Positions 6,452 to 50,966 of a stretch of DNA of 64,000 bases are shown one piece after another. This DNA comes from Halomonas socia. Its GTDB lineage: Bacteria; Pseudomonadota; Gammaproteobacteria; Pseudomonadales; Halomonadaceae. The stretch spans positions 558,001 to 622,000 of the forward strand of contig NZ_CP048812.1 of NCBI RefSeq assembly GCF_010977575.1, in the 5' to 3' direction. Below the pieces are notes generated by a model. That model saw only the letters and a program-made list of their open reading frames with translations, was not told the DNA's origin and did not search any database. Both the position numbers and the translations under genes were made by a program. How positions within the stretch are numbered: position 1 is the stretch's first letter; each line of letters begins with the position of its first letter.

Positions 6452-6659
6452 CACTCGGTCGCTCCGTCCCACCGGTAAGGCTTCTGAAAGACGTGCTGGT
6501 CCTGCTGTCCGGAGTTTCATGCAGCCGGTCACCATCCTCGTGGCGCTGGTGCTCTCCGTTCCCGGGGCTTTCCTGGCGCTGCTCACTACCCCAGCCTTCG
6601 CTGTCGCTTCCGGCGATGACTCAATTGGGGAGAAACTCGGCGCACAGGGGATGGAGATA

Positions 6660-7436: not shown

Positions 7437-7527
7437 GGGTTATCTCCAACTATTGCTTGCTGATGTGATGCCGCTCAAACTTATTCCCCCAGAGAAGACG
7501 GAACAAGCCACGAAACTCCCAGTAGAC

Positions 7528-7546
7528 TGATGCGTGAGATTCATCA
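7528..7546. promoter_or_regulatory. inverted repeat abutting a LysR-family start
   Basis: TGATG-N9-CATCA ends directly before the LysR ATG at 7547, in the intergenic space shared with the divergent SDR gene. LysR-type boxes are interrupted dyads of this size, so it could be an autoregulatory site. Five-base arms are short and this could arise by chance. Confidence 0.3.
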
Positions 7547-8476
7547 ATGTCGCGAACGATACGTACCGGAGATTTCGCTGAACTGAGGGCATTCGCTGCG
7601 GTCGCGGAAGCACGAAGCTTTCGCCGAGCCGCCTCGGAGTTGGGGCTCGACCCTTCCACGCTCAGTCATGCGGTTCGCGCGTTGGAAAACCGCCTCGGCA
7701 CGCGCTTGCTGCACAGGACAACCCGCTCGGTCGCCCCGACGGAAGCCGGCACGCGTCTTCTTGCCAGGCTGGCGCCCGCGCTCTCGTCGCTGGAAAGCGC
7801 GCTCGAAGATGCATTGGCGCCTGGCGACACGCTTTCTGGCACGGTTCGCCTTGTCGCGCCGCGCCTTGCCATTCGCACGCTGGTCGCTCCCATTATCGAA
7901 GGCCTCGCACGCGACTATCCCCATGTAACGCTCGATGTGATCACGGACGAACGGCCCGGCGATATCGTCCGGGCCGGTTTCGACCTGGCGATCAAGCTGG
8001 GCGAGTCGATCGAGCGCGATATGGTGTCGGTACCGCTGATGCCCCGCTTCACGACCGCAGTCGTTGGCTCACCGGCTTATTTCGCGGAGTATCCACCACC
8101 CACCACGCCGCATGATCTCGCCAGGCACCGCTGCATCGGCTGTTACAGCGGCCCGGGCGGAAGTTTCTATCGGTGGGAATTTGAAAAGGATGGAGCAGCC
8201 ATTGTGATGGATGTGACAGGGCCGCTTGCGACCGACGATCCCGACCTGATGCTGTCTGCGGCGCTGGCAGGCGTAGGGCTGTGGCACGGCGTCGAAGAAC
8301 TGGCGCGACAGGCTATCGCCGAGGGTCGGCTGATCCGCGTGCTGGCCGATTGGTCACCCAGCTATCCGGGCTTCCATCTTTGCTACGCTGCGGGTGTTGG
8401 GCTAGCGCCCGCCACCCGGGTGGTGGTGGATGCTCTCAAGGCAAACGCCCATAGCGCAGGCCATATCAAAAGGTAG
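7547..8476 (+). CDS. LysR-family transcriptional regulator
   Basis: A 309-residue regulator with an N-terminal winged helix (FAELRAFAAVAEARSFRRAA, then a recognition helix in DPSTLSHAVRALENRLG) and a C-terminal effector-binding domain. It lies divergent to the SDR at 6660-7436, which it probably controls. Its 3' end meets the stump of another SDR on the opposite strand, so the sequence just beyond it has been rearranged. Confidence 0.92.
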   Translation: MSRTIRTGDFAELRAFAAVAEARSFRRAASELGLDPSTLSHAVRALENRLGTRLLHRTTRSVAPTEAGTRLLARLAPALSSLESALEDALAPGDTLSGTVRLVAPRLAIRTLVAPIIEGLARDYPHVTLDVITDERPGDIVRAGFDLAIKLGESIERDMVSVPLMPRFTTAVVGSPAYFAEYPPPTTPHDLARHRCIGCYSGPGGSFYRWEFEKDGAAIVMDVTGPLATDDPDLMLSAALAGVGLWHGVEELARQAIAEGRLIRVLADWSPSYPGFHLCYAAGVGLAPATRVVVDALKANAHSAGHIKR

Positions 8477-8479
8477 TCG

Positions 8480-8599
8480 CTCGCTGACCGCATCCCATTC
8501 CTCGACCTGTAGCGCATCGAACCTTGGAATCGGGCCGATACCAGCGTTGTTAACCAGGACGTCGAAGTGGCCGTAGCGTTCACAAGCGCACTTCGGCAT
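8480..8599 (-). pseudogene. internal fragment of an SDR gene
   Basis: A short minus-strand frame encodes RYGHFDVLVNNAGIGPIPRF and EEWDA, unmistakably the middle of a short-chain dehydrogenase. It lacks the N-terminal nucleotide-binding motif and everything after EEWDA. It lies between the end of the LysR gene and the end of the next SDR, so it is a remnant left by deletion or recombination at about 8480. Confidence 0.75.
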
Positions 8600-8613
8600 G
8601 CTTTCTCACGTTT

Positions 8614-9582
8614 TCACCTCAGTAGAGGGCATTCGTCTTCCGTTTTCAGATCAACCAATTGCTTTGAATCTCTCCACAACCTGGCGGCACGCTCTTCGTC
8701 ATACGACATCGTTGCAGAACGCATTTCATTGAACGAACCGTCGTTGACCTGGAAATACTTGCCGGAGCCGTGGGTATAGGCCGGATCGATAGCCAGCTTT
8801 GCCAGGGATGCTCCCGAGAGGTCGAGGCTTCCCACCGTTATGCCGGCGCGTTTCATCATCCACTTGGCGAAAGCCGAACGGGCGATCATCCGCAAAGGCG
8901 CCGGCAGGCCGCGCAGGAACCCCGTCTCCGATATGGAACCGGGATCGAAGGCGATCGAGGAGATACCGCTACCGGCTTTCCGCAGGCGTCGATGCAATTC
9001 ATATGCGAACAGGATGATGCATAGCTTCGCTGTGGCATAGCGAACGCCGGCCGAAAGAGGTTTGCCGCCATCCTTGCCGGTAGCCGCGAGCATCCCGGCG
9101 TCGGGCTCCACAGCGGGCCCGACCGCCTTGCCGTCCCGTGTGTCGGGATCGTGTGTCCCGCTCGCCGTGAACACGATACGGCCATTGTCCGCCAGCGTGT
9201 CGATCAGCAGGTGGACCAGCAGGAAATGGCCGAGGTAATTGCTCGCGAAAGTTTCCTCGTATCCTTCCAGACTGTACTGAACCGCTCCGAAAGCGCGCCC
9301 TCCTGCGTTGCAAAGAATCGCCTGGAGTGGCTCCACATCGCCGCTTTTCAGCAGCGACCGGAACTGTGCAGCGGCCTCTCTGACAGAAACCAATGAAGAG
9401 GTATCGAGTTGCAGTATGCTGACTTTCGTGCCGTGATCTTGCCGAAGCTGATTCGCGACTTCCTTCATGCGATCGGGGCTTCGGCCGGCGAGCACGATAT
9501 GTTCAATCGAATCCAAAGCGAGTCGTTTGACACATTCCAGCCCGATCCCGCTGTGACCACCTGTGATCAATACAGTTGACAT
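8614..9582 (-). CDS. SDR oxidoreductase, protochlorophyllide-reductase/WWOX-like subgroup
   Basis: A 322-residue, longer SDR. It shows GGHSGIGLE at the N-terminus, a LCNAGG motif, the Ser in VFTASGTHD, and a Tyr-Lys pair in VRYATAKL that departs slightly from classical YxxxK spacing context. The extended C-terminus is typical of the light-dependent-reductase-like SDR subgroup. It follows the next SDR (9638-10396) by 55 bases on the same strand and is probably in the same operon. Confidence 0.85.
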   Translation of the reverse strand: MSTVLITGGHSGIGLECVKRLALDSIEHIVLAGRSPDRMKEVANQLRQDHGTKVSILQLDTSSLVSVREAAAQFRSLLKSGDVEPLQAILCNAGGRAFGAVQYSLEGYEETFASNYLGHFLLVHLLIDTLADNGRIVFTASGTHDPDTRDGKAVGPAVEPDAGMLAATGKDGGKPLSAGVRYATAKLCIILFAYELHRRLRKAGSGISSIAFDPGSISETGFLRGLPAPLRMIARSAFAKWMMKRAGITVGSLDLSGASLAKLAIDPAYTHGSGKYFQVNDGSFNEMRSATMSYDEERAARLWRDSKQLVDLKTEDECPLLR

Positions 9583-9637
9583 TCCGTATTCTCGTTCATG
9601 CTGTTCAGCGTTGAGGTCAATGAGGTCCAGGAAGAGA

Positions 9638-10396
9638 TCACCACGGAAGCAAGCCGTTCGTATGCGAGAAGGTACCTGTCGGCCCGTCGGGCCCGATCAG
9701 CGCAAGGCGCACCGCCTCGCGGGCGCCTTCTTCGACCGTCTCCGTGCCTGAATATTTGTTGAGGTTCGTCCTGGTGAAGCCCGGGGAGACGGCGTTGACC
9801 TTGATCCCGTCCTCTTCCAGCTCGACCGCCATGGCAAGCGTCATGGCGTTGAGGCCCGTTTTCGATGCCGCATAGACGGGCGTGTACATCGGACGGTGGG
9901 AGTTGGCCGGATCCGCGTTCAGCATCAGCGACCCGGCCCCGCTCGACACATTGACGATATTGGCATGCGGCGCTTCGCGCAGCATCGGCACCATCGCCTG
10001 GTAAACGGCGAGCGGGCCGAATACGTTGGTCTCCCACACCGCCCGCATCTCGTCAAAAGAGACAACGCTGGGGCGGGTCGTGCGCGCATAGTCCTCGAGC
10101 GACATGCCCGCTTCCCAGCTCGTGTTCGAGATGGCCGCGTTGTTGACGAGCACATCGAGACGGCCAAACGCGCTGCGGATATGCTCCGCCGCGGCGGCGA
10201 TCGAAGCGCGATCCGTCACGTCGAGCTGGATGGCGCGCGCGTCTCCCTCGATCTCGGCCGCCGCAGCCTCACCGCGTGCGAGATTGCGCGACCCCACGAG
10301 AGCGGTGAAGCCCTTCGATGCGAGTTCTTTTGCGATCTGAAGACCGATTCCCTGGTTGGCCCCGGTGACCAGGGCGACGGGTTTATCGTGTGCCAT
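9638..10396 (-). CDS. SDR oxidoreductase
   Basis: A 252-residue SDR with GANQGIGLQ, VNNAAIS, NVSSGAG and YAASKTG motifs, so both the cofactor site and the catalytic Ser-Tyr-Lys are intact. It resembles carbonyl-reductase-like SDRs. It is the first gene of a two-SDR minus-strand unit, divergent from the AraC regulator starting at 10492, which is the likely regulator. Confidence 0.9.
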   Translation of the reverse strand: MAHDKPVALVTGANQGIGLQIAKELASKGFTALVGSRNLARGEAAAAEIEGDARAIQLDVTDRASIAAAAEHIRSAFGRLDVLVNNAAISNTSWEAGMSLEDYARTTRPSVVSFDEMRAVWETNVFGPLAVYQAMVPMLREAPHANIVNVSSGAGSLMLNADPANSHRPMYTPVYAASKTGLNAMTLAMAVELEEDGIKVNAVSPGFTRTNLNKYSGTETVEEGAREAVRLALIGPDGPTGTFSHTNGLLPW

Positions 10397-10491
10397 GATG
10401 ACTCCTGCAATTTGCGATGCTGAGAGTATGGCGTGCCATCACAGGATGATCTACAATATTACGTCCATATTTCTTTTTCATATGTCCGGAA

Positions 10492-11448
10492 ATGATCGAC
10501 CCGCTCGCCCAGGTGGTCACGCTCCTTCAACCCGTTGCCCCGTTCTCGAAACGGGTGAGCGGCGCTGGCCGTTGGTGCGTTCAGCGCACAGAGTTCGGAC
10601 GCCCCTTCTATTGCGCCATTCTTGAGGGGGAGTGCCGTCTTGCAACCGACGGCCACGACGAGATCGTTCTTCGGGGGGGAGATTTCGTGCTGATCCCCTC
10701 GGCGCATAACTTCACAATGTCTAGCCATATGCCAACAAGCGCCGAAGACATCGTTGCAATGCCTCACATGCTATCCGATGGTGAACACCGGCTCGGCAAC
10801 CCAGAAGGCCCTCCCGATGTTCACTTCCTGGTGGGTTACTGTGTTTTTCGCTCCCCGGATGCGGCTCTGCTCGCTTCGCTGCTGCCGCAGCTCGTGCATA
10901 TCCGAGGCGTCAATCGCCTGGCCACGCTCATGCAACTCGTAAGCGATGAATCGCGTGCACAGCGACCAGCGCGTGATGTTGTTCTGGAACGCCTGCTGGA
11001 AGTCCTGCTCATCGAGGCTCTTCGCTCCAGTGGACAGACAGATACATCGCTCGGGCTACTGCGCGGCCTTGCCGACGAACGCCTCGCCGTCGCTATTCGC
11101 CGGATGCATGAAAGTCCCGATCGGCCCTGGACGGTTGCGCAACTGGCAAAAGAAGCGACGCTCTCCCGGTCTGCGTTTTATGAACGGTTCGGCCGCGCAG
11201 TGGGCATCGCTCCGATGGAGTACCTGCTCGCCTGGCGTATGGCACTGGCCAGGGACTGGCTGCGCAGAGGAAAAACCAGCATCGCTGAAATCGCCGAACG
11301 AGTCGGCTACAGCTCCGCGAGCACGTTCAGCGTCGCCTTCGCCCGCCATGTCGGACTACCGCCTGCCCGCTACGCCCGGGACGAGCCGTTCGACAGGATG
11401 CCGCAGGCCGAAGCCGGAAACTCCACGAAGGCCGGGCCGATCACTTGA
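10492..11448 (+). CDS. AraC-family regulator with cupin_6-type sensor domain
   Basis: A 318-residue regulator. The N-terminal half resembles the AraC cupin_6 ligand-binding domain (CVQRTEFGRPFYCAILEGEC, then GDFVLIPSAHNF). The C-terminal half is a double helix-turn-helix with the ERVGYSSASTFSVAFARHVG signature. It faces away from the SDR pair beginning at 10396, with 95 bases between the starts, and is the obvious candidate for controlling them. Confidence 0.9.
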   Translation: MIDPLAQVVTLLQPVAPFSKRVSGAGRWCVQRTEFGRPFYCAILEGECRLATDGHDEIVLRGGDFVLIPSAHNFTMSSHMPTSAEDIVAMPHMLSDGEHRLGNPEGPPDVHFLVGYCVFRSPDAALLASLLPQLVHIRGVNRLATLMQLVSDESRAQRPARDVVLERLLEVLLIEALRSSGQTDTSLGLLRGLADERLAVAIRRMHESPDRPWTVAQLAKEATLSRSAFYERFGRAVGIAPMEYLLAWRMALARDWLRRGKTSIAEIAERVGYSSASTFSVAFARHVGLPPARYARDEPFDRMPQAEAGNSTKAGPIT

Positions 11449-34270: not shown

Positions 34271-34344
34271 ACCTTTCCTTAGGAATTACGTTAACGTTAG
34301 CGGGGTACTTACCTTGGGGATAAACCACTTCGCGAAGATCACTT

Positions 34345-34425
34345 CCCCTCGATCGTCGCGGGTGGCTTGCTGCTTACGTCGTACATGACGCGATAGGGAA
34401 CGGTTTCCAGCAGCTCTTGCCAAAC
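34345..34425 (-). repeat. degenerate fragment of the guaA 3' end (copy a)
   Basis: The plus strand reads CTCGATCGTCGCGGGTGGCT, then TGCTGCTTACGTCGTACATG and GGTTTCCAGCAGCTC. This aligns with the final codons of guaA at 49400-49495 (CTCGATCGTCGCGGGCGGCT), with an internal deletion and scattered changes. It does not code for anything now. It is one of three guaA-tail relics between the dadA-like gene and the true guaA. Confidence 0.6.
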
Positions 34426-34619
34426 TGCCCAGCCCCTCACCGTGGCTGATAGATCTATGGGACGCCGTTAGACCATTCCATAGCGGGTAACATCTATATA
34501 TTCTAATATTTAAAACCACCAAGACGCAACAACCGCATTTCCTCATTGTTCCGGCAGTCTGCTTGACCCACTTCATCCATCACATACAGGTCGACGCCAG
34601 CGAGTTATGATTGATTTAC

Positions 34620-34773
34620 TCCCTATCAATCGTCGCGGGGGCTTGCTGCTGACGATACGTTGCGAGAGAAACGTCGTAGGCCAGGCCAAGCTGCCGGGCA
34701 GTGGCTCGCCCAGATGATGGGTGGCGAAGAACCGGCGGTGGATATGGCGCCGTTCCGGGTTGATCGCTTCTGA
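34620..34773. repeat. guaA'-dadA' scar (copy b)
   Basis: The left part (about 34622-34675: ATCGTCGCGGGGGCTTGCTG and following) is a degenerate guaA tail. It is joined directly to the last 25 or so codons of the dadA-like gene on the plus strand (WLAQMMGGEEPAVDMAPFRV, then DRF and a stop at 34773). A guaA tail followed by a dadA tail is the reverse of the native gene order. It is what tandem insertion of units between the two genes would leave behind. Confidence 0.7.
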
Positions 34774-38033: not shown

Positions 38034-40448
38034 TCAGTACAGATGTTGCTGAAATTCCACAAAGACTTCCCGGATTTGGCCCGCAGGGCCAAGTTCTCGG
38101 ACGGCATCTCCCAGGCTGTGGTATTTCAGTTCTATTAACTGCGGCAGCTTGTCGGTGGAAAGCTCACCCACGCCGCGCGCGACATAATGATCGAGCACGA
38201 AGCGCAGGAATTCCTGTTGCCGGTAGTCGTGGCCCTGGAAGATGGCTTCGCGGTGTGAATCCACCCGCTCGGCGCGTGTCACTGGGGCCAAGTTGAAAGC
38301 GATATAGGCCAGCACGTCATACAGGTCGCTGTTCTCGGCTTCGATCAGCTTGCCGACCTCGGCCAGTTGTTCGACCCCATAGCCCTTTTCCTCCAGCCCC
38401 TCCAGCAGCTTGCGTCGGGTATCCGGCCGACCCCACACAGAGCGCAGCTCATCCTCGTCGGCAAACAGCGCGGGCAACTCACCAAACAGGCGCTGGATGA
38501 ACTCGGCGGCGGAGATCGGCTTGCCGTCCGGGCTCCAGAAGCTGGTAGCACTCATATGCTGGATGGTGCGCTCTTTGCCGTCGGCAAGTTTCACCTTCAC
38601 CTTGCGGCGCTTCTCGCACACGCAGGGCCGTTCGCCGCACACCTCGCAGGGTTCGGGCGGTTGCTTCTCGCACTGGCACGGGCGCTCGCCACACACCGGG
38701 CACGGCTCGGGCGGGTTGACGGCACAGGTACAGGGTTGCTGGCCACAGGTCGCGCAGGGTTCCGGCGCCAGCGGCTCGCCATCCCACTCCGGGTCGTTGA
38801 AGTGTTCGTAGGCCTTCACGAAATCAAAGATCGTGAAATAGTCCTTGCCGTCGTACAGGCGGGTGCCCCGGCCGATGATCTGCTTGAATTCGATCATCGA
38901 ATTCACGGGCCGCATCAGCACGATATTGCGCACATTGCGGGCGTCCACCCCGGTGGAGAGTTTCTGCGAGGTGGTCAATATGGTCGGAATGGTCTTCTCG
39001 TTGTCCTGAAACTGCTTCAGGAAACGCTCGCCCTCGGCGCCGTCGTTGGCGGTCACGCGCTCGCAGTAGTTCGGATCAGTGCTGGTCTTCATCTGGTTGA
39101 TAAGATCACGCACCGCCAGCGCGTGGACCTGGGTGGCGCAGAACACCAGCGTCTTCTCGCACTGGTCGATCTGTTCCATAAATACCCTGACCCGGTACTG
39201 CTCGCGCTCGCGGATCTCGATCACGCGGTTGAAGTCATCCTCTGTATAACGCTTGCCCTCCTCGATCTCGCCCTCAATGACCTGGTCATCGGAGGTATAC
39301 ACATAATCATCCAGGGTGGTGGCGATCTGGCGCACTCTGAACGGCGTCAGGAAACCATCGTTGATGCCGTCCTTGAGCGAATACACATACACCGGCTCAC
39401 CGAAGTAGGCGTAGGTGTCAGCGTTGTGTCGGCGTTTGGGTGTGGCGGTCAGACCCAGTTGAACGGCGGGCGCAAAATACTCAAGAATGCCGCGCCAGTT
39501 GCTCTCGTCGTTGGCACCCCCGCGATGACACTCGTCGATGACGATGAAATCGAAGAAGTCCTGTGGGTAATCGCCAAAATTGGGGGCCGGGTCGCCGTTC
39601 CCATCACGCCCAGTCATAAAGGTCTGGAAGATGGTGAAAAACACATTGCCGTTCTTCGGCACACGGCCCTTCTTGCGGATGGTTTCCGGGTCGATGCGTA
39701 CGAGCGCATCCTCGGGAAAGACGGAAAAATCATTGAAGGCCTGGTTGGCTAGGATATTTCGATCAGCCAGAAACAGAATGCGCGGCTGGCGCTTCGGTTC
39801 GCCACTGGCACGCGCTGCTAGGCTCCAGCGGGCATGGAACAGTTTCCAGGCGATCTGAAAGGCAATGGCCGTCTTGCCGGTGCCGGTGGCCAGAGTCAGG
39901 AGAATGCGTTCGCGGCCATCGGCAATCGCCTCCAGTGCCTGGTTGATTGCGTTGTGCTGGTAATAGCGCGCCTGCCAGAAACCGCCCTTATCCTCGAACG
40001 GCACCGCACCGAAACGTTCGCGCCAGGTGTTGGTGGCCTCATCCTTGCCGTCAAAGGTCTCAGCCCAGAGTTCGTCCGGCGCAGGATAGCCCGCCACCTC
40101 GCCCTCGGCACCGGTTATCATGTCGATGCGGTAAATAGCATCGCCGTTGGTGGCATAGGCGAAGCGGGCCTGCAGGCGCTCGGCGTAGCGCTTGGCCTGG
40201 GCCAGCCCCTCGGTGGCCAGCAGGCTGCGCTTCTTGGCCTCGATCACCGCCAGCTTCTGGCCGCGGTAGATCAGCACATAATCGGCGATGTCCTGCTTTG
40301 CCCGCTTGCCCGCGCCCTGAAGCCTGCCCAGAGTGATCATCTCGCGCCGTACTCGGCTGGCCTCCACCACGCCCCAACCCGCAGCTTTCAGGGCCGGGTC
40401 GATCAGTTCCGCGCGAGTTTCGGCCTCATTGAGATTCGCATCCTTCAC
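38034..40448 (-). CDS. hsdR: type I restriction enzyme R subunit (EcoEI-like) with Cys-rich insert
   Basis: An 804-residue motor-nuclease subunit. Order: N-terminal nuclease motif (LAVIEAKKRSL), DEAD helicase with Walker A (LATGTGKTAIA), Walker B (VIDECHRGG) and GLTATPKR, helicase C domain, then an EcoEI_R_C-type C-terminus (RFVLDHYVARGVGELSTDKL). It cuts unmodified DNA with HsdM and HsdS. Between helicase and C-terminus lies a Cys-rich insert of three near-identical units (EPCxxCGxxPCxC). The GTG start overlaps the stop of the RhuM-Fic gene. Confidence 0.93.
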   Translation of the reverse strand: MKDANLNEAETRAELIDPALKAAGWGVVEASRVRREMITLGRLQGAGKRAKQDIADYVLIYRGQKLAVIEAKKRSLLATEGLAQAKRYAERLQARFAYATNGDAIYRIDMITGAEGEVAGYPAPDELWAETFDGKDEATNTWRERFGAVPFEDKGGFWQARYYQHNAINQALEAIADGRERILLTLATGTGKTAIAFQIAWKLFHARWSLAARASGEPKRQPRILFLADRNILANQAFNDFSVFPEDALVRIDPETIRKKGRVPKNGNVFFTIFQTFMTGRDGNGDPAPNFGDYPQDFFDFIVIDECHRGGANDESNWRGILEYFAPAVQLGLTATPKRRHNADTYAYFGEPVYVYSLKDGINDGFLTPFRVRQIATTLDDYVYTSDDQVIEGEIEEGKRYTEDDFNRVIEIREREQYRVRVFMEQIDQCEKTLVFCATQVHALAVRDLINQMKTSTDPNYCERVTANDGAEGERFLKQFQDNEKTIPTILTTSQKLSTGVDARNVRNIVLMRPVNSMIEFKQIIGRGTRLYDGKDYFTIFDFVKAYEHFNDPEWDGEPLAPEPCATCGQQPCTCAVNPPEPCPVCGERPCQCEKQPPEPCEVCGERPCVCEKRRKVKVKLADGKERTIQHMSATSFWSPDGKPISAAEFIQRLFGELPALFADEDELRSVWGRPDTRRKLLEGLEEKGYGVEQLAEVGKLIEAENSDLYDVLAYIAFNLAPVTRAERVDSHREAIFQGHDYRQQEFLRFVLDHYVARGVGELSTDKLPQLIELKYHSLGDAVRELGPAGQIREVFVEFQQHLY

Positions 40449-41449
40449 TCGTCGGCTCCTGCCAGCATATTCATGATCAGGCGGATCATGGTCTCCTTGT
40501 TTCCAGGGGTGGACTCGGCCACCAGCAGGGTCAGCGCCGCCAACCCCACATCGTTGATCACTGGCTCACCGGCGGCGTTGAGCAGACGGCCATTGCGATG
40601 CAGGAAATCCACGAACAGGAGGGCCGCGCTGCGCTTGTTGCCGTCCGAGAACGGATGATTCTTGACCACAAAGTACAGCAAGTGCGCAGCCTTGGCTTCC
40701 ACGCTGGGGTAGGCGGGTTCGCCAAATACGCTTTGATCCAGGTTGCCCAACAGCGACGCCAGGCCGTCACCTAGGTCGCAGGCAAACAGTTCAGTAGCTT
40801 CGCCGCGCGCGATCAGCTCGGCCTTGAGCCCATCCAGCGCGGCGCGCGCCTCCGCCACAGCCGGCAGCGTGCCGCCTAACTGGGCTCGCGGCTCGGCCAG
40901 AAGGCCCTCGTCGTAGCGTTGCAGCAGCAGAAACGTCCGCGCGTAGCGGCTGACAATATCCACAAGCCCGCGCCCGCTATCGGTATCCAAAGCAGGGCTC
41001 TGCGCTGCCTTGCGCACCAAACCCAATGCGGCTTCCAGTTCACGAGCGTTCTCTTCGAAGCGCTGCTGGTTCAGCGTCCAGCCCCGGGTGAGGTGCTCGC
41101 GCAAGGTGCGGGTAGCCCACTGCCGGAAGCGGGTACCCTGTTGGGATTTCACCCGGTAGCCAACCGAGATGATCACGTCCAGATTGTAGTGCTCGATAGC
41201 CCTGGTCACCTGTCGGCTGCCTTCCTGGCGAACTATCCGGAAATCCCGGATAGTTGCTTCACGCTCCAGTTCACCCTCGGAATAAACGTTCTGGACATGC
41301 TCGTTGACGGTCCGAACGTCCTTGCCAAACAGCTCGGCCATCTGCCGCTGGTTGAGCCAGACGGTCTCCTGGTCTGCGTCCAGCCGTACCTCGACGGCCT
41401 TGTCGGCATCCTCAAAAATGACGATGGGGCTTTGGCCGTCTGCTGTCAC
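40445..41449 (-). CDS. RhuM-Fic fusion protein inside the type I restriction operon
   Basis: A 334-residue protein with a GTG start behind AAGGAGG. The N-terminal RhuM-type domain (VWLNQRQMAELFGKDVRTVN, then GYRVKSQQGTRFRQWA) resembles phage regulators and binds DNA or protein. The C-terminal Fic/Doc domain has the intact active motif HPFSDGNKR, so it can probably AMPylate or phosphorylate a target. Such genes occur inside restriction loci; here it sits between hsdS and hsdR with overlapping starts and stops. It may act as a back-up toxin or modulator of the restriction system. Confidence 0.9.
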   Translation of the reverse strand: MTADGQSPIVIFEDADKAVEVRLDADQETVWLNQRQMAELFGKDVRTVNEHVQNVYSEGELEREATIRDFRIVRQEGSRQVTRAIEHYNLDVIISVGYRVKSQQGTRFRQWATRTLREHLTRGWTLNQQRFEENARELEAALGLVRKAAQSPALDTDSGRGLVDIVSRYARTFLLLQRYDEGLLAEPRAQLGGTLPAVAEARAALDGLKAELIARGEATELFACDLGDGLASLLGNLDQSVFGEPAYPSVEAKAAHLLYFVVKNHPFSDGNKRSAALLFVDFLHRNGRLLNAAGEPVINDVGLAALTLLVAESTPGNKETMIRLIMNMLAGADE

Positions 41450-41508
41450 GCGACCTCCTTATCGGCGATATCCTGCTTCGCACGATTGCCCGCACCCTGC
41501 GGATTCAT
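41446..41508 (-). CDS. 20-codon coupling ORF resembling the HsdR N-terminus
   Basis: ATG 41508 overlaps the hsdS stop (ATGA) and its own stop overlaps the GTG of the RhuM-Fic gene. The peptide MNPQGAGNRAKQDIADKEVA matches the HsdR N-terminal segment GAGKRAKQDIADYVL. It is probably a relic of the hsdR 5' end left when the RhuM-Fic gene was inserted, now serving at most as a translational bridge. Confidence 0.55.
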   Translation of the reverse strand: MNPQGAGNRAKQDIADKEVA

Positions 41509-43333
41509 AGCTCGAAACTCTCCTGCCCGGTTACCCGCTTGCCGGCGCCAGTGGGCACCATGCCATGGCTGCGAAGCCGGGCGATGGCCTCGTGAAATTG
41601 CTGCCGGGTGTATCGCTGCTTGTCCGGGTGCCAGTTGTCCCGCGCCTCGTGGACAATGTCTGCCTCCGTGGGCTTGTGACCATCCAGCAGGAGGTTATTC
41701 CAGGCTGCATAAACGGTGGCGACCAGTTCCGCCTTTTGAGTATCCAGCGGCATCAGCAGGCTCACCACCCGGTCCAGGGCGCTCTTGTAAGGCTCAACGG
41801 CATCCAGTGCACGGGCCAACCATTCGCTGTAGCGCTTACCTTTGACAAAATCATAGCCCCGCTTGCCCTCTGGCCGCTGAACAAACTCGTAATAATCATT
41901 TTCTCTGGCCCATTTTTCGGCCGTGCGCATATGGGCGAAATCATTGGGGCCAGCAGCATCCTTGACAGGCGCGCGCCCCAGATCGATCCGGGACAGTGCT
42001 TCCACCAGATGCAAGGTTTTCTGCGCCTTCACATGGCCAAAGGTTTTATTCTTGCCCCTGGATTCGTGCCAATGATAGGCCACCGCCATAATATGGGCAG
42101 CAAAGGCGGGCGAATCGGTGGTTGGCGGCGCACTCGATTCTTTGGCCGAAGTGATGGGAACTACATTGCCCGCCGTCAACTCGCCGGAGAAGGCCTTTTG
42201 CAGCAGGGATTGTTTAAGCTCAGCCAGGGCGGTGAGTTTTTTTTGGTAGATGGCTTCGAGGCGTCTTGTCTCCTCAGTAATTTCATTAATGAGTTCCACG
42301 ATATTTTTTTGCACTTGTGTATCAGGAAGCCTAACCGGTAGTTCCTTTATGATACCCATATTCAGACCTGACATGATGGAGCCTTTCGCACGCGACTCTA
42401 GGAAATTGCGAGCAATTGGATGATAAAGGAAATACGAATGTAGAAACTCAGGAATACATTTTGACTGATCAAGCGAAATGCAGCAAAGGTGCTTTGTATT
42501 AATCGACAGAGGAATGTCGGTCGGAACGACGGCGCACCGTCCACACGTGCCCATTATTGTGATGAGAACATCGCCCGGTTGAACTGTGTACCTTTTCAGC
42601 TCCTGATATTTATCCTCAGTGATGTAACGTTTTTTATCCCAGGCGAATACATTCTGCACAGTATTGTCTATTCCGAGTACAGCGATACCATCATCCACAA
42701 ATTCACTGTGAAGCAGTTGACTTCCGAAAGGACCTGTTCGTATCGAACCTTTTTCGGGTCGAGCGAGCTCCTCAACAGTCGCTTCTGACCATCCCTTGGC
42801 ATCGGGATCACCGAAAATCCTATCGGCGACCAAGTTCTCAAACAGCTCGCGGGAGTTGGCGAGGTTATTTTGAGTGTTGGTGATGGCCGCATCGATCCCG
42901 GCGAAGGCTTCATCAAGGATGGTGACGATGCGTTTTTGCTCGGGAGGAGAGGGAAGTATTGCTCGATAGCATAGACCACATTCCGGTTTATTCCGGGCTT
43001 TACTCCTGTTGCCAGCGCAGGAAGATTTAGAGCCGACAACATGTAGTAAAGAAACTTGCGGTCATGCTTTTTATTATCGAATGTGACGTAGTAAGTGACG
43101 TCCAGCGGCCAAAAACCACCCTCGACGAGGTTCACTGCCCCTGCAGTGCCCTTACGACCGACAATGACACTTGGGTGCAGCCAGTAGGGTTCTCTGGAGT
43201 AACATTTGATGCCGTTTGCTCCAAATGCGGGGAAGCCTTCTTTTTCGCCGCAACGCTCGTCCTTCGGTAGTGGCTTACCGTATTCAAGGGTGATCACATC
43301 GCCAAGCTTTTGTTTAGTCCACCCTTCCCTCAT
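41505..43333 (-). pseudogene. hsdS: type I restriction specificity subunit, interrupted by a frameshift
   Basis: Two frames together give one HsdS. The first (43333 onward) carries target-recognition domain 1 (WTKQKLGDVITLEYGKPLPK to YAIEQYFPL). The second carries SPPEQKRIVTILDEAFAG, domain 2 (TGPFGSQLLHSEFVDDG), the C-terminal helices and an extra domain of about 200 residues. They meet near 42942-42956 in a C/T-rich stretch, where a small deletion breaks the frame. The specificity protein is probably lost unless this is a sequencing error, which would leave the system without target recognition. Confidence 0.8.
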
Positions 43334-44805: not shown

Positions 44806-45257
44806 TTAGGGCCTGTGTTCTGTCTGTTAACTTATGCTATAGGCTGAGCTTTTATGGGCTAATGCCACTTAGCATGCGTAGCTTTATAGTGGAATAGAAG
44901 ACGCAACGGAAAGCCATTAATGCACACATTGCCTTAGCGCTACCTACAGCCTACAAAGATAAAATACTGTAATGCCATAAAAATCACACCCTGCATGTCA
45001 TATTCAATAGCGCCCCTCCGAACCACTACTAAGGAGCCAATAAGTGCATAAACCCACTAAATCACATATCCAAAAATTGCCGACTAAGAAAACTCTTAAT
45101 CGGCTAATTCTTCTTCTACTTAAGGCACGACAGGACTCTGCCCCTCCCTCGATGAGTTCGACATTATATATTCTTCCATCAAGAACTTCTAGAAATTCAA
45201 TCTAATACCCCTCTTGAGGGCCAATGAAATTTGGCCTTCATCCATTTCAATTGGAAC
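44806..45257. other. AT-rich upstream region of the restriction operon
   Basis: About 450 AT-rich bases. A perfect 6-bp hairpin (GGCCAA-N6-TTGGCC) lies at about 45219-45236, but has no strong T-run. I see no gene. The hsdM promoter must lie in the left part. Confidence 0.45.
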
Positions 45258-45640
45258 ACTACCGTCCGGGGATAACACCCTTTCCCTGCGACCGCCCTGT
45301 CTGCGTTGTACATACCGGCTCTATCGGCAGTCGTCTCATCGACCTTAGCCCGAGTAGACAAAACCCGGTCACGAATTGCAAAGAAAAAGGGACTACCCAT
45401 TCGTAGACCCTTGGTCTCAGTCAGATTAGCTTTGCCAGGCGTTCTGCCTAGGCGTGCCTCACTCCCACTCGATCGTCGCCGGGGGCTTGCACTGACGCGT
45501 AGGTCACGCGGGAGACGCCGCTGATCTCGTTGTTGATTAGGTTGGAGACGGTTTCAAGCAAGTCGTAGGGCGGAAGGTGCGCCCAGCGTGCGGTCATAAA
45601 GTCGATGGTTTCCACGGCGCGCAGGGCGATGAGCATTCGT
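45258..45640 (-). repeat. long imperfect direct repeat of the guaA 3' flank and 3' end (copy c)
   Basis: About 380 bases resemble 49190-49570: a CCGGGGATAACA segment, TCTATCGGCAGTCGTCTCA, ACAAAACCCGGTCACGAATT, the guaA terminator hairpin in damaged form, then the last 55 or so codons of guaA (from about 45463) with small indels. The guaA part is non-coding here. It and the true guaA end bracket the four-gene QueC-type operon as direct repeats. Confidence 0.85.
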
Positions 45641-45649
45641 AGCAGATGC

Positions 45650-46068: not shown

Positions 46069-46718
46069 TTAGACAGCGAAAGTTAACTGCACCTGAGTTC
46101 GCGCTGTGGCCCGACGCCATAGCCAGGCGTCAAACTCTCGGCGTGGAAGCGAGAGCAAGTCAGCAGCACAGCAAAATGATGCGCGCAAGAAATGATAGTC
46201 GTCTCTCTCTACATCAATTGCTTTGGCGAACGCACGAACATGGCGATCAACTGCGATAGAGTCAATGCCAACGAGGCATGCCATATAATCGACGGTCTTC
46301 GGACCAATACCGCTGATGGTTTGGATTGCATTGCAGAATTCATCGGATGCCAAATCTGTACGCAAATCCTGAACATCCTCGATGCCCCACCGCTGTAGGA
46401 AAATTACCAGCGCCTCGAAACGGCTAACTTTCTCATGATGACGCCAATTCAAGAATGCACCCGCCCCCCATCCTGAATAATTGAGATCAATGAGGAAATC
46501 GTATGGCAGCTCGGATACGTCCGCAGAATGTCTAGCACCCGTGGACGCACAACCGTCGTGTAATTGAGCCCGGCTTGGAGCACCGAGTCCGCTAGAACAG
46601 CCCCTAAGTGGTCGCAGGTAACACGCGTCTGTCTCTTACCCGAGAGCACGCCTTCATCCTTCGCGTGATTGGCAATGCGACGCGCTACGAGCAGCACTTC
46701 GATGGCGGGACTGGTCAT
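46069..46718 (-). CDS. HhH-GPD DNA glycosylase/lyase-like protein, frame broken in a G-run
   Basis: Two frames, 46718-46449 and 46452-46069, read as one protein of about 216 residues. The N-terminal part (VLLVARRIANHAKDEGVLSG) is joined at GATGGGGGGCGGG to LNWRHHEKVSRFEALVIFLQ, then the helix-hairpin-helix SGIGPKTVDYMACLVGID and the catalytic-Asp segment IAVDRHVRAF. The lyase Lys and the Asp are both in place. Adding one G restores the frame. Family members excise damaged or modified bases. The ATG overlaps the QueC-type stop, so it is the last gene of the operon. Frameshift, sequencing error or programmed slippage are all possible. Confidence 0.7.
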
Positions 46719-47335
46719 ACTAATTTAGCCTCTTTCAATGCACTCAGGCGCTCGACGCAGTTCGGGCAGGCACCGCAGGGAAACTGTGCAGCCGCTTGGC
46801 ACGAGTATGTTCGCCCGATAGGTACACCAAGCTCTGCAGCTGTCCTGGCTACATCAGCCTTGGACGAATAGCGGTACGGTGAGTGAAAGCGAACGGGGCC
46901 TATGCTCGATGTGAGGCCATCGAGACTATCCATAAACGCGGCAGTACAGTCGATTTCTTTGGCGTGGTTACTGTTGATGAAGCCAGTATAGACATCCAGA
47001 ATACCAACGGTTTGCGCGTGTGCCGCGGCAGCGGCAAAAAATAGCATTGTTCTGTATGGTATGTACAAATCGTCATCCTTGACCTCTTCAGTCCAGAGGT
47101 CGGCTTCGCAAATCAACCGCGACGATGAACCTCGGAAGATGGACGATATGTCGAAGCGCTCAGGCCGCTGCGTATCAGAGGGAAGAACTTCGTTCACACG
47201 ACTCCACTCAACGCCTACGCAATGTTGCCCGTAATCGAAAAAGATTGGTACGACCTCCACACCTGTAGACGCGAGCTGGTACGCAACAGTTGTTGAGTCC
47301 AATCCACCCGAAGCCAGTAGGAGTACTTTTCTCAT
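46715..47335 (-). CDS. QueC-like ATP-pyrophosphatase (7-deazaguanine-type chemistry)
   Basis: A 206-residue protein with the PP-loop LLLASGGLDSTTVAYQL (SGGLDS at residues 9-14), FDYGQHCVGVEW, and a C-terminal zinc site of four Cys (179, 187, 190, 193: SCQAAAQFPCGACPNC). QueC makes 7-cyano-7-deazaguanine from 7-carboxy-7-deazaguanine and ammonia using ATP. No other queuosine genes are nearby, and stand-alone QueC-like proteins are known in defence systems (Qat, type IV CBASS). The start overlaps the end of the kinase-transferase gene (ATGA), and its end overlaps the glycosylase gene. Confidence 0.88.
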   Translation of the reverse strand: MRKVLLLASGGLDSTTVAYQLASTGVEVVPIFFDYGQHCVGVEWSRVNEVLPSDTQRPERFDISSIFRGSSSRLICEADLWTEEVKDDDLYIPYRTMLFFAAAAAHAQTVGILDVYTGFINSNHAKEIDCTAAFMDSLDGLTSSIGPVRFHSPYRYSSKADVARTAAELGVPIGRTYSCQAAAQFPCGACPNCVERLSALKEAKLV

Positions 47336-48669
47336 CGCAATTCAGCCCTCAGTTCAGAGATGACGTTGAAAGTGCCGTTGAGACACGCATCAAGGTCCGC
47401 GGAGTACACCAAACTTCCGGCGATCACCATCGTGTTCTCATTTTCACGTCGAGGGTCGTAGGTGATGACAGGCTTCCCCATTTCAATTGCCATGCCGATT
47501 TCAACGAGCGTACCAGGATCACGGTCGAGAGGAACCGAGAAGACTAAATCACATTCTTTCAACAGCTGGCAGTCCATCTGATACGTTCGGCGCAGATCAG
47601 ACTCACCCGCAGGTCGCTTTAACTCGCCATTCTCCAAGATTGGACGCCGCACCTTGAAGTTGTGGTACGTGAGGCTATCCAAAGCACGATCAAGCTCCTG
47701 TTTTTCGACGTAGGAGAAGTCCGGGCCAGCAAGGTAGATTGAGTAGCTTTGACGGTCGTGCCATGGAAGCACCGTTCCACCGAGCGCTTGCAGCACCTCC
47801 ACCGAGAGTCGGAACCCGCGCTGCACATCGCGCTTGATGTCGTCGGGAAACGTCGACTGCGAATACGCCGTAGCAGCCTGGCTTCCGCGCCAAGCTGCCT
47901 CAACCCAGCCCTTGTGACAAGAGAGGCCCACCATGACGCTTGAGTACACATCCCCAACGCCGACCGAATTGACGGTGCCGCCCAATGTTGCAGGTATCTC
48001 TTCGATGCCGCCATCCTGCATGTTGAATAGTCGGCTGCCACCACGGTTCTCTTTGAGCAGGAAAACCTCCGGCGCAAGCGTTATCATTGTATCCTCTAGC
48101 AGTCCCTCTATATCGTCCTTTCCCAGTCTCGTGAACAACGAAGATGATGTCGAGATAATGATTGCATCTATACGCCCTTTAAACCCCTTTAGCGATGAGA
48201 GGTCGTCAAGGTCGTACGCGATATCGAACGACAACCGCGCGTTCTCTGAGAACGCACTGGCGAGCTCGGAGATACTGAACCTCCCTGGGAATACAAGAAT
48301 CTTTTCGTAGGCGTCGAGGTTGGGTAGCGGGTCGTGCATCTTCGCCACTTTAGTATCACGCATCAAGTCTTCGTAGCCTTGGTGCGCAACCTCCTTCACG
48401 TCACCAATAAGGATGACGCTCGGTGCGCCGAGTACATCGCCTAGCCAGATGAACTCCTTGCACCCGAGCTCCTCGAGGTAGCGCGTTGCCTCACCGAGGA
48501 GGTATTGTGGGCAAAAAGCCGCCAATGAATATGGAAGGTCTGCGGCCCATAAGCCCCTCGCGGCGTGTCCAATACCACCCAAGCGAAGTTTGCATGCTGC
48601 GCCAGGCTGAGCGAGCGTGTAATCGACTACAAGCTCCCCAACAATAAGGACAGTGTCTTTGTGGTCCAT
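47332..48669 (-). CDS. PfkB-family kinase fused to nucleoside 2-deoxyribosyltransferase
   Basis: A 445-residue fusion. Residues 1 to about 305 form a PfkB/ribokinase-like domain: GGIGHAARGLWAADLPYSLA near the N-terminus and the catalytic GGTVNSVGVGDVY with Asp 240. Residues about 308-445 form a nucleoside 2-deoxyribosyltransferase domain: SIYLAGPDFSY, and the catalytic DPGTLVEIGMAIEMGKPV with Glu 390. The first would phosphorylate a nucleoside or sugar; the second cleaves or transfers N-glycosidic bonds of nucleosides or nucleotides. It lies 2 bases after the small glycine-tailed gene and overlaps QueC. It probably handles a nucleotide signal or substrate of the system. Confidence 0.87.
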   Translation of the reverse strand: MDHKDTVLIVGELVVDYTLAQPGAACKLRLGGIGHAARGLWAADLPYSLAAFCPQYLLGEATRYLEELGCKEFIWLGDVLGAPSVILIGDVKEVAHQGYEDLMRDTKVAKMHDPLPNLDAYEKILVFPGRFSISELASAFSENARLSFDIAYDLDDLSSLKGFKGRIDAIIISTSSSLFTRLGKDDIEGLLEDTMITLAPEVFLLKENRGGSRLFNMQDGGIEEIPATLGGTVNSVGVGDVYSSVMVGLSCHKGWVEAAWRGSQAATAYSQSTFPDDIKRDVQRGFRLSVEVLQALGGTVLPWHDRQSYSIYLAGPDFSYVEKQELDRALDSLTYHNFKVRRPILENGELKRPAGESDLRRTYQMDCQLLKECDLVFSVPLDRDPGTLVEIGMAIEMGKPVITYDPRRENENTMVIAGSLVYSADLDACLNGTFNVISELRAELR

Positions 48670-48671
48670 AA

Positions 48672-49058
48672 CTACTGTGGACCGAAGTCAGCAGCTACGG
48701 TGGGAACGGGTGAGACTGCGCTGGAGGTAACCACTCCGACGTATGTCACACCGTCCTCCAGGCATGCCACGAGGTAGTTGTATGATGTGGGGAGCGCTCC
48801 AATTTTCACACCATTAACATCGACTGCGAAGACGCGCTTCTTGTCGAAGATAATGCTCAGTTGGCCTCCAACAGCTGGGACAGCGTTGAATTGCGAATAG
48901 AAATCGCTGTTTCCAACGTCATCGAGGAGCACGTGAAACGCCTGCTGGCATTTGTCGGCCCCGCTCGCACCACCTTCCATACCTGTTCCACTCCCTGCGA
49001 CTTCCTTAGCCCTCGTTCCGGGATAGTCTGAAAAACGACCCGAGCCTGAGCTTCCCAT
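48672..49058 (-). CDS. small protein with conserved-looking Gly/Ser N-terminus, probable substrate of the QueC-type enzyme
   Basis: A 128-residue protein whose start at ATG 49058 is supported by GGAAGGGG 6 bases upstream; the longer frame to 49139 lacks such a site. The N-terminus is MGSSGSGRFSDYPG, followed by a Gly/Ser-rich stretch, then a compact domain with DKCQQAFHVLLDDV and GALPTSYNYLVACLEDGVTY. Removal of Met would expose Gly 2. I recognise no enzyme motif. As first gene of the operon, with a flexible MGSS tail, it resembles partner proteins of QueC-like enzymes in defence loci. Confidence 0.72.
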   Translation of the reverse strand: MGSSGSGRFSDYPGTRAKEVAGSGTGMEGGASGADKCQQAFHVLLDDVGNSDFYSQFNAVPAVGGQLSIIFDKKRVFAVDVNGVKIGALPTSYNYLVACLEDGVTYVGVVTSSAVSPVPTVAADFGPQ

Positions 49059-49312
49059 ATTCCACCCCTTCCTGGTTGATCCAGTCTTTTTGCACTGGTG
49101 TTGTTCGACCCGCTCTACGAGCGAGCGCCACAGGGCCACCGCCCCACGGGCTAGAGAAATGTGCGGCCGCCGACGGCATAACCAAAACCACGCTACCGCC
49201 CGGGGATAACATCATTTCCCTGCGACAGCCCTGTCTGCGTTGTACTACCTGTTCTATCGGCAGTCGTCTCAGCGACCTTAGCCTGAGTAGACAAAACCCG
49301 GTCACGAATTGC
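49059..49312. other. promoter region of the QueC-type operon and native guaA flank
   Basis: About 250 bases. The right part (from about 49190) is the sequence duplicated at 45258 onward, i.e. the native guaA downstream flank. The left part carries the ribosome site and presumably the promoter of the operon transcribed leftward. I see no separate gene. Confidence 0.45.
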
Positions 49313-49345
49313 AAAGAAAAAGGGCCTACCCTTTGGTAGACCCTT
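49313..49345 (-). terminator. Rho-independent terminator of guaBA
   Basis: AAGGGCCTACC-CTTT-GGTAGACCCTT forms an 11-bp stem with one mismatch or wobble. On the minus strand it is followed by TTTTCTTT. It lies 47 bases after the guaA stop, where the guaBA transcript should end. A damaged version is in the repeat at about 45388. Confidence 0.8.
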
Positions 49346-49391
49346 GATCCCGGTCAGCTTAGCCGCGTCAGGCGTTCTGCCTAGGCGTGCC

Positions 49392-50966
49392 TCACTCCCA
49401 CTCGATCGTCGCGGGCGGCTTGCTGCTCACGTCATAGGTCACGCGGGAAACGCCGGCGATCTCGTTGATGATGCGGTTGGAGACCTTCTCCAGCAACTCA
49501 TACGGCAGATGCGCCCAGCGTGCGGTCATGAAGTCGATGGTTTCCACGGCGCGCAGGGCGATAACCCATTCGTAGCGGCGGCCGTCGCCGACCACGCCGA
49601 CGGATTTCACCGGCAGGAACACGGCGAAGGCCTGGCTGGTCTTGTGGTACCAGTCGGCGTTGTGCAGCTCCTCGATGAAGATGGCGTCGGCTTCGCGCAG
49701 AATGTCGGCGTACTCTTTCTTCACCTCGCCGAGGATGCGCACGCCCAGGCCCGGCCCCGGGAAGGGGTGGCGGTAGACCATGTCATAGGGCAGTCCGAGC
49801 TCGACGCCAAGCTTGCGCACTTCGTCCTTGAACAGCTCGCGCAGCGGTTCGACCAGCTTGAGCTTCATGGTCTCGGGCAGGCCGCCGACGTTGTGGTGCG
49901 ACTTGATCACGTGGGCCTTGCCGGTCTTGCTGGCGGCGGATTCGATCACGTCGGGGTAGATGGTGCCCTGGGCCAGGAAGTCGACGCCTTCGATCTTGCT
50001 GGCTTCCTCATCGAACACCTCGATGAAGGTGTTGCCGATGATCTTGCGCTTGGCCTCGGGGTCGGCTTCGCCCTCGAGCTTGTCGAGGAACAGCGGTTCG
50101 GCGTCGACGCGGATCACCTTCACGCCCATGTGCTTGGCGAAGGTCTCCATCACCTGCCCGCCCTCGTTCTTGCGCAGCAGGCCGTTATCGACGAACACGC
50201 AGGTCAGCTGATCGCCGATGGCGCGGTGCAGCAGCGCCGCGACGACCGAGGAGTCGACGCCGCCGGAGAGGCCGAGCAGCACGTGGCGGTCGCCGACCTG
50301 GTCGCGCACCCGGGCGACCTGGTCTTCGATGATCTTGGCCGGGGTCCAGAGTTTCTCGGCGCCGCAGATGCCGACCACGAAGTGCTCGAGGATGCGCTGG
50401 CCCTGCAGGGTGTGGGTCACCTCGGGGTGGAACTGCACGCCGTAGAAGTGCTTCTCGGCCCAGCTCATGGCGGCGATGGGGCAGCTCGGGGTGGAGGCGG
50501 TCACGGTGAAGGTGTCCGGCGCGCGGGCGACCTTGTCGCCGTGGCTCATCCACACGTCGAGCAGCGCCTTGCCGTCGTGGTCCACGTGGTCCTTGATGTC
50601 GCGGAACAGGTCGTCGCTGCTGTCGATGGTGACCTGGGCGTAGCCGAACTCATGCTTGTTGGAGCCTTCCACGGCGCCGCCGAGCTGCTCGGCCATGGTC
50701 TGCATGCCGTAGCAGATGCCCAGCACCGGCAGGCCCAGTTCGAACACGCACTGCGGCGCGCGGGGCGAGCCCTCGGCCACGGTGGACTCCGGCCCGCCGG
50801 AGAGGATGATGCCGTTGGGGGCGTACTCGCGGATCTCCTCCTCGCTGATGTCGAAGGCGCGGACCTCGGAGTAGACGCCGATCTCGCGCACGCGGCGGGC
50901 GATCAGCTGGGTGTACTGGGAGCCGAAGTCGAGGATCAGGATCTTGTGGGCGTGAATGTCGGTCAT
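49392..50966 (-). CDS. guaA: GMP synthase (glutamine-hydrolysing)
   Basis: A 524-residue enzyme converting XMP to GMP with ATP and glutamine. The N-terminal class I amidotransferase domain has the nucleophile in [10 protein letters not shown] and the His/Glu of QFHPEVTHT. The ATP-pyrophosphatase domain follows with [15 protein letters not shown], then the dimerisation domain ending ATIEWE. It follows guaB by 101 bases on the same strand, as in the usual guaBA operon. Its 3' end is the probable recombination point for the DNA that lies between it and the dadA-like gene. Confidence 0.98.

Follow-up and report, generated by a model that had tools for sequence, protein, structure and literature searches.

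Introduction

In type IV CBASS (cyclic oligonucleotide-based antiphage signaling system), the QueC-like ligase Cap9 joins 7-carboxy-7-deazaguanine (CDG), which is made by the enzymes QueD and QueE, to the N-terminal glycine of its partner, the CD-NTase, and QatC of the Qat system is thought to act like Cap9 on the N-terminus of its partner. Here we compare with these systems a four-gene cassette of Halomonas socia that encodes a small protein with a Gly/Ser-rich tail, a PfkB-type kinase fused to a nucleoside 2-deoxyribosyltransferase (NDT), a QueC-like PP-loop protein, and an HhH-GPD glycosylase. The cassette lies in a stretch of 64,000 nucleotides (contig NZ_CP048812.1, positions 558,001 to 622,000), which is called the window throughout. 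An earlier note on this DNA had proposed a candidate new immune system that makes or senses a modified nucleobase. We consider it fairly probable that the cassette is a mobile system for the QueC-dependent conjugation of a nucleobase to a protein, most likely directed against phages. Conjugation and defence are proposals from gene content, conservation, fold predictions, motifs, and genomic context, and the conjugation part is given more weight than the defence part.

Three papers from the literature searched bear on the gene set (PMC13329287, PMC13279940, PMC11996544). According to PMC13279940, QatB starts with MGTS and has an essential disordered tail of the MG type, the CBASS CD-NTase starts with MGGS, and the exchange G2D abolishes defence in both systems. 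PMC13329287 describes a Cluster 4 of the family PF06508, about 88% of which is in operons with PfkB-PF05014, and interprets it as purine salvage. The association of QueC with PfkB/NDT in the sister clade B defined below is known already, printed as this Cluster 4, so that the cassette is not wholly new as the earlier note had supposed. The word glycosylase is absent from the main text of PMC13329287, and the tailed protein is unmentioned in the parts examined. In the literature searched, which included few preprints and subscription journals, no mention was found of the tailed protein with this operon, of its glycosylase, or of the clade of the window.

Results

Recurrence of the cassette

As described in the earlier note, the four genes lie on one strand (Table 1), with a gap of 2 bases between the genes of the small protein and the fusion and overlaps of 4 bases between fusion and QueC-like gene and between QueC-like gene and glycosylase. 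Translation confirmed the small protein with its MGSSGSG tail, for which family scans gave nothing convincing. The C-terminal part of the fusion matched Nuc_deoxyrib_tr (PF05014, E 5.5e-15), and the window's PfkB half gave no Pfam match at E 1; a profile of 11 fusion relatives matched the NDT structure 6evs and PfkB kinases in the PDB, which bears out the fusion. The QueC-like protein matched QueC both in Pfam (PF06508, E 2.6e-31) and in PADLOC (E 4.6e-23), and its zinc site was confirmed. The C-terminal part of the glycosylase gave a weak PADLOC match to OGG (E 2.7e-6).

Relatives were collected with the PfkB/NDT protein or its alignment as bait. The loci comprise 10 of 12 matched plasmid records (the omitted H4 and H9 are, by their rows, near-twins of taken ones), the best 80 of at least 213 confirmed relatives from genomes, there being further candidates, and 39 loci from a viral collection; in Bacteroidota, matches were found in 8 of 395 genomes (the centre genome and 7 others). 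Many of the collected loci are related and not independent. The tailed protein, the fusion, and the QueC-like gene occur together and in the same order in at least 105 loci, the window included, of which 44 are window-like (clade A, window included) and 61 belong to the sister clade B. As the same order recurs in 105 loci, the arrangement is not due to chance. By their record titles, the loci span several bacterial phyla and the haloarchaea. With three profiles built from members of the fetched loci themselves, an HhH glycosylase was found, at whatever position within the stretch retrieved, in 77 of the 83 loci with at least 2.5 kb of flank on each side (31/32 in clade A, 46/51 in clade B); it was missing in L005, L009, L010, L037, L059, and L089. 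The four families on whose co-occurrence elsewhere the earlier note had made its proposal depend do occur together.

One survey yielded 104 loci with small protein and fusion, 6 of which had no QueC match: three carry a PurA-like gene (L045, L058, L085), two end at a sequence edge (L050, L105), and L036 has an aberrant fusion ORF (open reading frame) and no QueC. No match to the small protein was obtained for 22 of the 39 viral loci, which are lone NDT genes, and for 4 of the 80 genome loci, namely L039 and L091 (short NDT match), L074 (contig edge), and L062 (CBASS). At L037, fusion and QueC form a single ORF. Five loci (L053, L055, L060, L063, L106) are double cassettes with the order tailed protein-fusion-QueC-tailed protein-fusion, the first tailed protein of L055 being cut by the sequence edge.

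The distribution is patchy. Among 58 relatives of the host, the fusion was present in two, the window genome and one genome of the same family, and the four other genomes of the same genus searched gave no match, nor did phage genome records. Phylum searches around L062 and L069 returned the respective centre genome only (1/292 and 1/396).

Table 1. Positions in the window of the cassette genes and of the features at the island borders
Feature	Position	Strand	Remarks
Small tailed protein	49058-48672	minus	128 aa, translation starts MGSSGSGRFSDY...; proposed substrate of the QueC-like enzyme
PfkB-type kinase fused to NDT	48669-47332	minus	445 aa
QueC-like PP-loop ligase	47335-46715	minus	206 aa; SGGxDS loop and four-Cys zinc site
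HhH-GPD glycosylase, N-terminal part	46718-46449	minus	89 aa; frame ends early
HhH-GPD glycosylase, C-terminal part	46470-46069	minus	other frame; TTG ORF 46452-46069
Run of six G (minus strand)	46464-46469		glycosylase frame changes at or near this run
Right island border: guaA 3' end and downstream	49190-49577		direct-repeat copy 1
Left island border: truncated second guaA 3' end	45256-45643		direct-repeat copy 2

The small tailed protein

In the AlphaFold2 model of the window's small protein, the predicted local distance difference test (pLDDT) was below 50 for segments 1-3, 5-8, and 14-33 and averaged 88 to 94 in the blocks from residue 41 on. The protein is predicted to consist of a disordered Gly/Ser-rich N-terminal tail and a confident beta domain with a HIRAN-like fold. 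The 12 best Foldseek matches in the PDB (E up to 0.001) were all to the HIRAN domain of HLTF (E 1.2e-4 to 8.3e-4, probability 1.0, template modeling [TM] score 0.51-0.53). The HIRAN domain, known from HLTF and Rad5, binds DNA 3' ends. The likeness is one of predicted fold; identity is 14%, and the small protein adds the N-terminal tail. A PDB sequence search with the small protein gave E 0.12 at best, and no HIRAN model was among the 16 Pfam families matched at E 0.1 by 78 members of the small-protein family. The small proteins of clades A and B are homologous (profile-profile probability 97.1, E 6e-11).

When read from the first ATG, 84 of 109 small proteins start with M[GSAT][GST], a start seen in 11 of 143 fusions and lone NDTs, 7 of 108 QueC-like proteins, and 4 of 44 glycosylases; this count omits L001, L104, and L141 and, for the small protein, also L045, L050, L058, and L085. 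A start rule favoring the motif, which 107 of 112 rows fit (exceptions L045, L050, L058, L085, and the fragment L104), was dropped as proof of the start motif and replaced by the first-ATG count. With starts set by that rule, the content of Gly plus Ser is 47% in residues 2-30 and 17% from residue 46 on. The window's small protein has both the flexible tail and the Met followed by a small residue and Gly/Ser. Two haloarchaeal tailed proteins stand out on reading: that of L006 seemingly has two copies of the beta domain, and that of L010 a very long acidic tail.

The QueC-like ligase and a possible supply of the base

The QueC-like profile matches the structures of QueC (2pg3, 3bl5) and of Cap9 (9nto). 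In a tree with only two CBASS and two TIR-type sequences, in which the deeper order is weak, the QueC-like proteins of clade A (41 sequences, support 99) and clade B (61, support 56) group together, apart from 20 canonical QueC proteins. Tyr35, Gln37, Glu43, Pro93, Arg95, and the base-reading Asp129 are invariant in 105 of 105 QueC-like sequences (L038 was dropped for its variant loop), and the PP-loop and the zinc cysteines are kept with few exceptions. PP-loop and zinc site are common to the window protein and canonical QueC. The YxDC motif, however, is present in 18 of 20 canonical QueC proteins and in none of 41 from clade A, and identity with canonical QueC was rejected because the window protein scored 96.3 bits against a TIGR00364 cut-off of 150.3 and the host has a separate canonical queC, along with QueD matches, elsewhere in its genome. 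According to PMC13329287, Tyr131 and Tyr189 of E. coli QueC are essential for preQ0. In an alignment to the host's own QueC, the corresponding positions are changed, to Glu/His and mostly Gln/His, respectively. Since the QueC core is kept and both Tyr positions are changed, the scaffold and the guanine-edge Asp persist, and ordinary preQ0 synthesis by the QueC-like protein is unlikely.

At one locus, L069, on a metagenome-assembled genome (MAG) of Cryobacterium (7216-11321), the HhH glycosylase, tailed protein, fusion, QueC-like, QueD-like, and QueE-like genes follow each other in this order. The QueD-like protein is above the Pfam cut-off (104.6 bits), and the five best models for the product of the gene after it are all QueE, all below cut-off. 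In this MAG, which may be incomplete, the QueD match of the cassette is the only one, and no QueC above cut-off was found. The L069 cassette seems to bring its own CDG synthesis. A QueD match was obtained for 22 of the 24 cassette hosts tested, and in 19 a canonical QueC exceeded the cut-off.

Comparison with Qat, type IV CBASS, and hybrid loci

The gene content seen in family scans of the cassette proteins bears out the statement of the earlier note that the cassette is neither Qat nor CBASS. The cassette resembles Qat in having a QueC-family protein beside an MG-tailed protein (PMC13279940). However, no cassette protein matched the ATPase QatA or the TatD nuclease QatD, QatB is helical, and identity with QatC was rejected, as the window protein has 206 residues, compared to about 400 with extensions in QatC, and scored 14.9 bits with NF041925 (cut-off 280). 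With type IV CBASS (Cap9/Cap10/OGG) it has in common the QueC-like ligase, an enzyme acting on base and sugar, a glycosylase resembling OGG, and a partner whose N-terminus is rich in Gly. Membership was rejected because no cassette protein matched a cyclase family and the MG-tailed partner is HIRAN-like rather than a CD-NTase; furthermore, a Tyr of the QueC pocket is replaced by Glu, and no effector gene was recognised in the window cassette. The cassette proteins gave no match to tRNA-guanine transglycosylase (TGT), the type of Cap10, and the operon has the PfkB/NDT fusion instead. The PADLOC match to QueC has E 4.6e-23 in the window, compared to E 1.4e-60 and 2.6e-69 in two CBASS loci (L062 and L146, respectively). 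L146 is an ordinary type IV CBASS, with TGT (E 6.5e-110) and a CD-NTase starting MGGSGGG.

The L062 operon, on an archaeal MAG contig of Thermoplasmata (2352-7710), resembles type IV CBASS and encodes the PfkB/NDT fusion. Besides QueC, PADLOC recognised CD-NTase (E 6.4e-93, in-frame start MGGG) and OGG (E 1.4e-82), and the operon also encodes a Cap17-like effector and, before OGG, an ORF that on reading is exonuclease-like. The 8.9-kb contig holds no further ORF above 140 aa and none of TGT size; judged by gene content, the fusion stands in the place of Cap10 in this single case. A rhizobial plasmid locus (L147, 703-5065; also L148) carries QueC, an annotated HhH-GPD lyase, a TIR protein starting MGGGSSGS, a TIR-TGT fusion, and, by reading, a PfkB-like kinase with a degenerate C-terminus, and is apparently a separate QueC immune system. 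In 11 rows (H20-H30), QueC is paired with a gene annotated as HhH-GPD or DNA lyase.

In three Bacteroidota loci, a PurA-like gene occupies the slot of QueC (L045, 8371-11075; L058, 8406-11027; L085, 8302-11020). The L045 protein matched PF00709 (E 1.7e-41), and the other two were assigned by similarity to it. The partner starts with MKGG in L045 and MKGK in L085, and the start of the L058 partner is probably a non-ATG codon ahead of IGGGGGY; residue 2 is thus Lys in two cases and Ile in L058 if this start is right. The L085 locus is followed by a dGTPase.

The operonic PfkB-PF05014 neighbor of Cluster 4 is present in the window, and 54 of 61 clade B proteins carry the Cluster 4 motif CH(x)5CxxCxGCxK, which is absent from the window clade (0/41). 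In clade B, QueC is often followed by a SagB-like dehydrogenase (in L068, TIGR03605 E 1.2e-16, below cut-off, and PF00881 E 1.1e-9), a gene that none of the 41 clade A rows contains. Where the SagB-like gene is present, all 40 of 40 clade B rows have Ser or Thr at position 2 of the tailed protein, compared to 12 of 23 rows in which it is missing (Fisher p 2e-6, uncorrected for relatedness). These figures, the p value included, use the motif-favoring start rule and a manual reset of two near-identical rows to an inner ATG, without which the first count is 38 of 40.

The PfkB/NDT fusion

The motif GxGD is present in 112 of 113 fusion rows and the NDT motif D.GT..E.G in 106 of 113. In each of the five double cassettes, one fusion is devoid of the NDT glutamate motif. 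As NDT and PfkB are nucleoside and sugar enzymes, the fusion and the QueC-like protein might recycle nucleosides in purine or deazapurine salvage, with the small protein as a regulator, and salvage is what PMC13329287 proposes for Cluster 4. We regard this as very unlikely in view of the constant tailed protein with its CBASS/Qat-like start motif, the glycosylase in 77 of 83 loci, the patchy distribution (2 of 58 relatives) with prophage and defence-gene settings, and the use of the fusion by one CBASS operon (L062).

NDT-like domains of retrons are effectors depleting nucleotides or nicotinamide adenine dinucleotide (NAD), and NDT is included among the DrHyd domains. According to PMC9503650, conflict systems employ DrHyd domains as NADase effectors or as cyclases. 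The NDT part could be an effector of this kind, with the QueC-modified HIRAN protein as a sensor of DNA ends or a switch; the retention of the NDT motif in most fusions and the one fusion lacking it in each double cassette would fit such a role. The linkage to a kinase and the Cap10-like slot suggest a modifying role instead, and we consider an effector quite unlikely.

Defence genes in the neighborhood

Among 110 of 190 neighboring ORFs of 22 clade A genome loci, PADLOC at E 1e-25 matched 57 families, a count of families that overlap one another and not of distinct ORFs. The 25 of these 57 that were listed include components of Gabija, Septu, Druantia, AbiE, dGTPase, and DRT. In the control, eight 20-kb stretches of the window genome, 4 families were matched among 106 of 117 ORFs. 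Five clade A loci, four of prophage type and L036, were left out of the neighbor sample. After the Cupriavidus copy comes LmuA (E 4.7e-145). The Rhodobacteraceae-type copies are set among genes for phage heads and tails: PHROGs, applied to a single protein at each of six loci, identified families for portal, terminase, head decoration, tail terminator, minor tail, and tape measure. Where the earlier note had asked whether the genes recur near defence genes, clade A is often found near families of known defence systems, and some copies lie in prophages.

The glycosylase and its frame change

The earlier note was right about the family of the fourth gene, as indicated by the PADLOC match to OGG and the fold of relatives, but not about an intact gene. 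The N- and C-terminal parts lie in different frames, which switch at or near the run of six G, and the C-terminal frame is open at least from 46470 to the stop at 46069. All 33 aligned relatives are open over about 209 to 229 aa. The window copy probably lacks a whole glycosylase. Its C-terminal part retains the pair Lys/Asp (GIGPK...AVDRH), which is typical of HhH-GPD glycosylases; K146 and D163 are invariant in the 33 aligned relatives. For the intact relative L014, the HhH-GPD fold was predicted and the catalytic Lys/Asp pair found. The PADLOC matches to OGG of the window's C-terminal part (E 2.7e-6) and of an intact relative (E 4.4e-5) are weak compared to E 1.4e-82 in L062.

The retained Lys/Asp pair would also suit a system of DNA modification and restriction in which the QueC-like protein, the NDT, and the kinase together produce a modified deoxynucleotide for DNA, whose absence or presence there would direct cutting by the glycosylase. 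Two neighbor families are in line with this: one near 16 clade B loci, whose representative is a DNA methylase of the D12 class, and a dGTPase-like one near 15 loci (its L085 member being the dGTPase mentioned above). Family scans of the window cassette, however, revealed no DNA base-exchange enzyme, the conserved tail motif would be left unexplained, and the QueC-linked tailed protein is a CD-NTase in L062 and a TIR protein in L147, so that we judge DNA modification unlikely.

Setting of the cassette in the window

The cassette is bordered by the guaA 3' end on one side and a truncated copy of this end on the other (guaA named by reading), and these two 3'-end copies are 87.5% identical over 391 aligned bases. 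GC content is 54% in the cassette and 61% in the window. Because of the lower GC content and the flanking guaA 3'-end copies, the cassette resembles an island at guaA. About 11 kb further left, two shorter pieces of this guaA stretch (34339-34392 and 34618-34676) suggest repeated or tandem integration at guaA. The neighbor of the cassette is a type I restriction-modification system. Its hsdS seems to be divided between the ORFs 42668-43333 and 41505-42833, which overlap in different frames (region 41505-43333); the Pfam scan covered the former. Between hsdS and hsdR lies a gene for a RhuM-Fic protein (40445-41449).

In this genome, the cassette might be a decaying passenger island without function, as suggested by the frameshifted glycosylase, the flanking guaA duplication, the missing fusion matches in the four other genomes of the genus, and the similarly split hsdS. 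The first three genes are open, though, and the altered frame may stem from an error in the sequence or be reversible within the G run; decay is possible but rather doubtful.

Discussion

Conjugation on the HIRAN-like protein is suggested because of the start motif, the conserved QueC core, the queD/queE-like genes of L069, and the use of the fusion in the CBASS operon L062; the MG-tailed TIR protein of L147 and the single fusion-QueC ORF of L037 support it further. Of the earlier proposal, the involvement of a modified nucleobase is kept, and the making or sensing of a free base is given up: the best-supported role of the QueC-like protein is modification of the small protein's N-terminus. 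According to this model, Met would first be removed from the small protein, exposing Gly2 of the flexible tail. With ATP, the QueC-like ligase would then activate CDG, or a closely related base, at its carboxylate and link it to the amine at the N-terminus, in the way that Cap9 modifies the CBASS CD-NTase; this step is modeled on Cap9 homology and genome context, and the target would be Gly2, or Ser2 in most of clade B. The PfkB/NDT fusion may subsequently act on the base or on the tagged tail, adding or exchanging (deoxy)ribose and phosphate. Finally, the HIRAN domain could recruit the tagged protein to stalled forks or free ends of DNA, for example during phage replication, where the HhH-GPD glycosylase/lyase would be a DNA-attacking partner or a remover of the base.

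Several observations weigh against this model. The base-stacking Tyr of QueC and Cap9 is replaced by Glu in 43 of 43 clade A proteins and by His in 58 of 62 clade B proteins, and because of this replacement the attached base may differ. The kinase and the NDT are without equivalent in Cap9 chemistry. The HIRAN assignment comes from the predicted fold, with a TM score of about 0.5. Genes like queD and queE were found near the cassette only in L069 among the loci scanned, and there the QueD-like protein falls short of the NCBIfam cut-off (88.5 versus 89.25 bits) and the best QueE model reaches 97.5 bits compared to a cut-off of 260.1. Two of the 24 hosts (G008, G780) have no QueD match and five no canonical QueC above cut-off; the former counts against a simple supply of the base by the host unless QueD was missed or the genomes are incomplete. 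The survey of neighboring genes covered clade A only (22 of 27 loci), with a control from one genome, and the window's glycosylase is broken.

More tentatively, the cassette may belong to a class of modular immune systems that attach a base as a tag to the N-terminus of a protein and whose partners, base-sugar enzymes, and ligases are interchangeable. The partners would be CD-NTase, QatB, TIR protein, and HIRAN protein, the base-sugar enzymes TGT or PfkB/NDT, and the PurA-like protein at QueC's place in the three Bacteroidota loci an alternative ligase. In clade B, an oxazole step is conceivable, in which the SagB-like dehydrogenase may close and oxidise the acylated N-terminal Ser/Thr.

Type IV CBASS is known to attach a base covalently to a protein, and Qat is suspected of doing the same. 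If the conjugation model is true, the cassette would be a third user, which reaches from proteobacteria to haloarchaea and whose tagged partner is a DNA-end-binding protein, and a QueC cluster filed as purine salvage would be recast. The CDG genes of L069, the ligase swaps, and the CBASS hybrid may also serve as handles on the questions of which base is used in Qat and what role the tag plays there.

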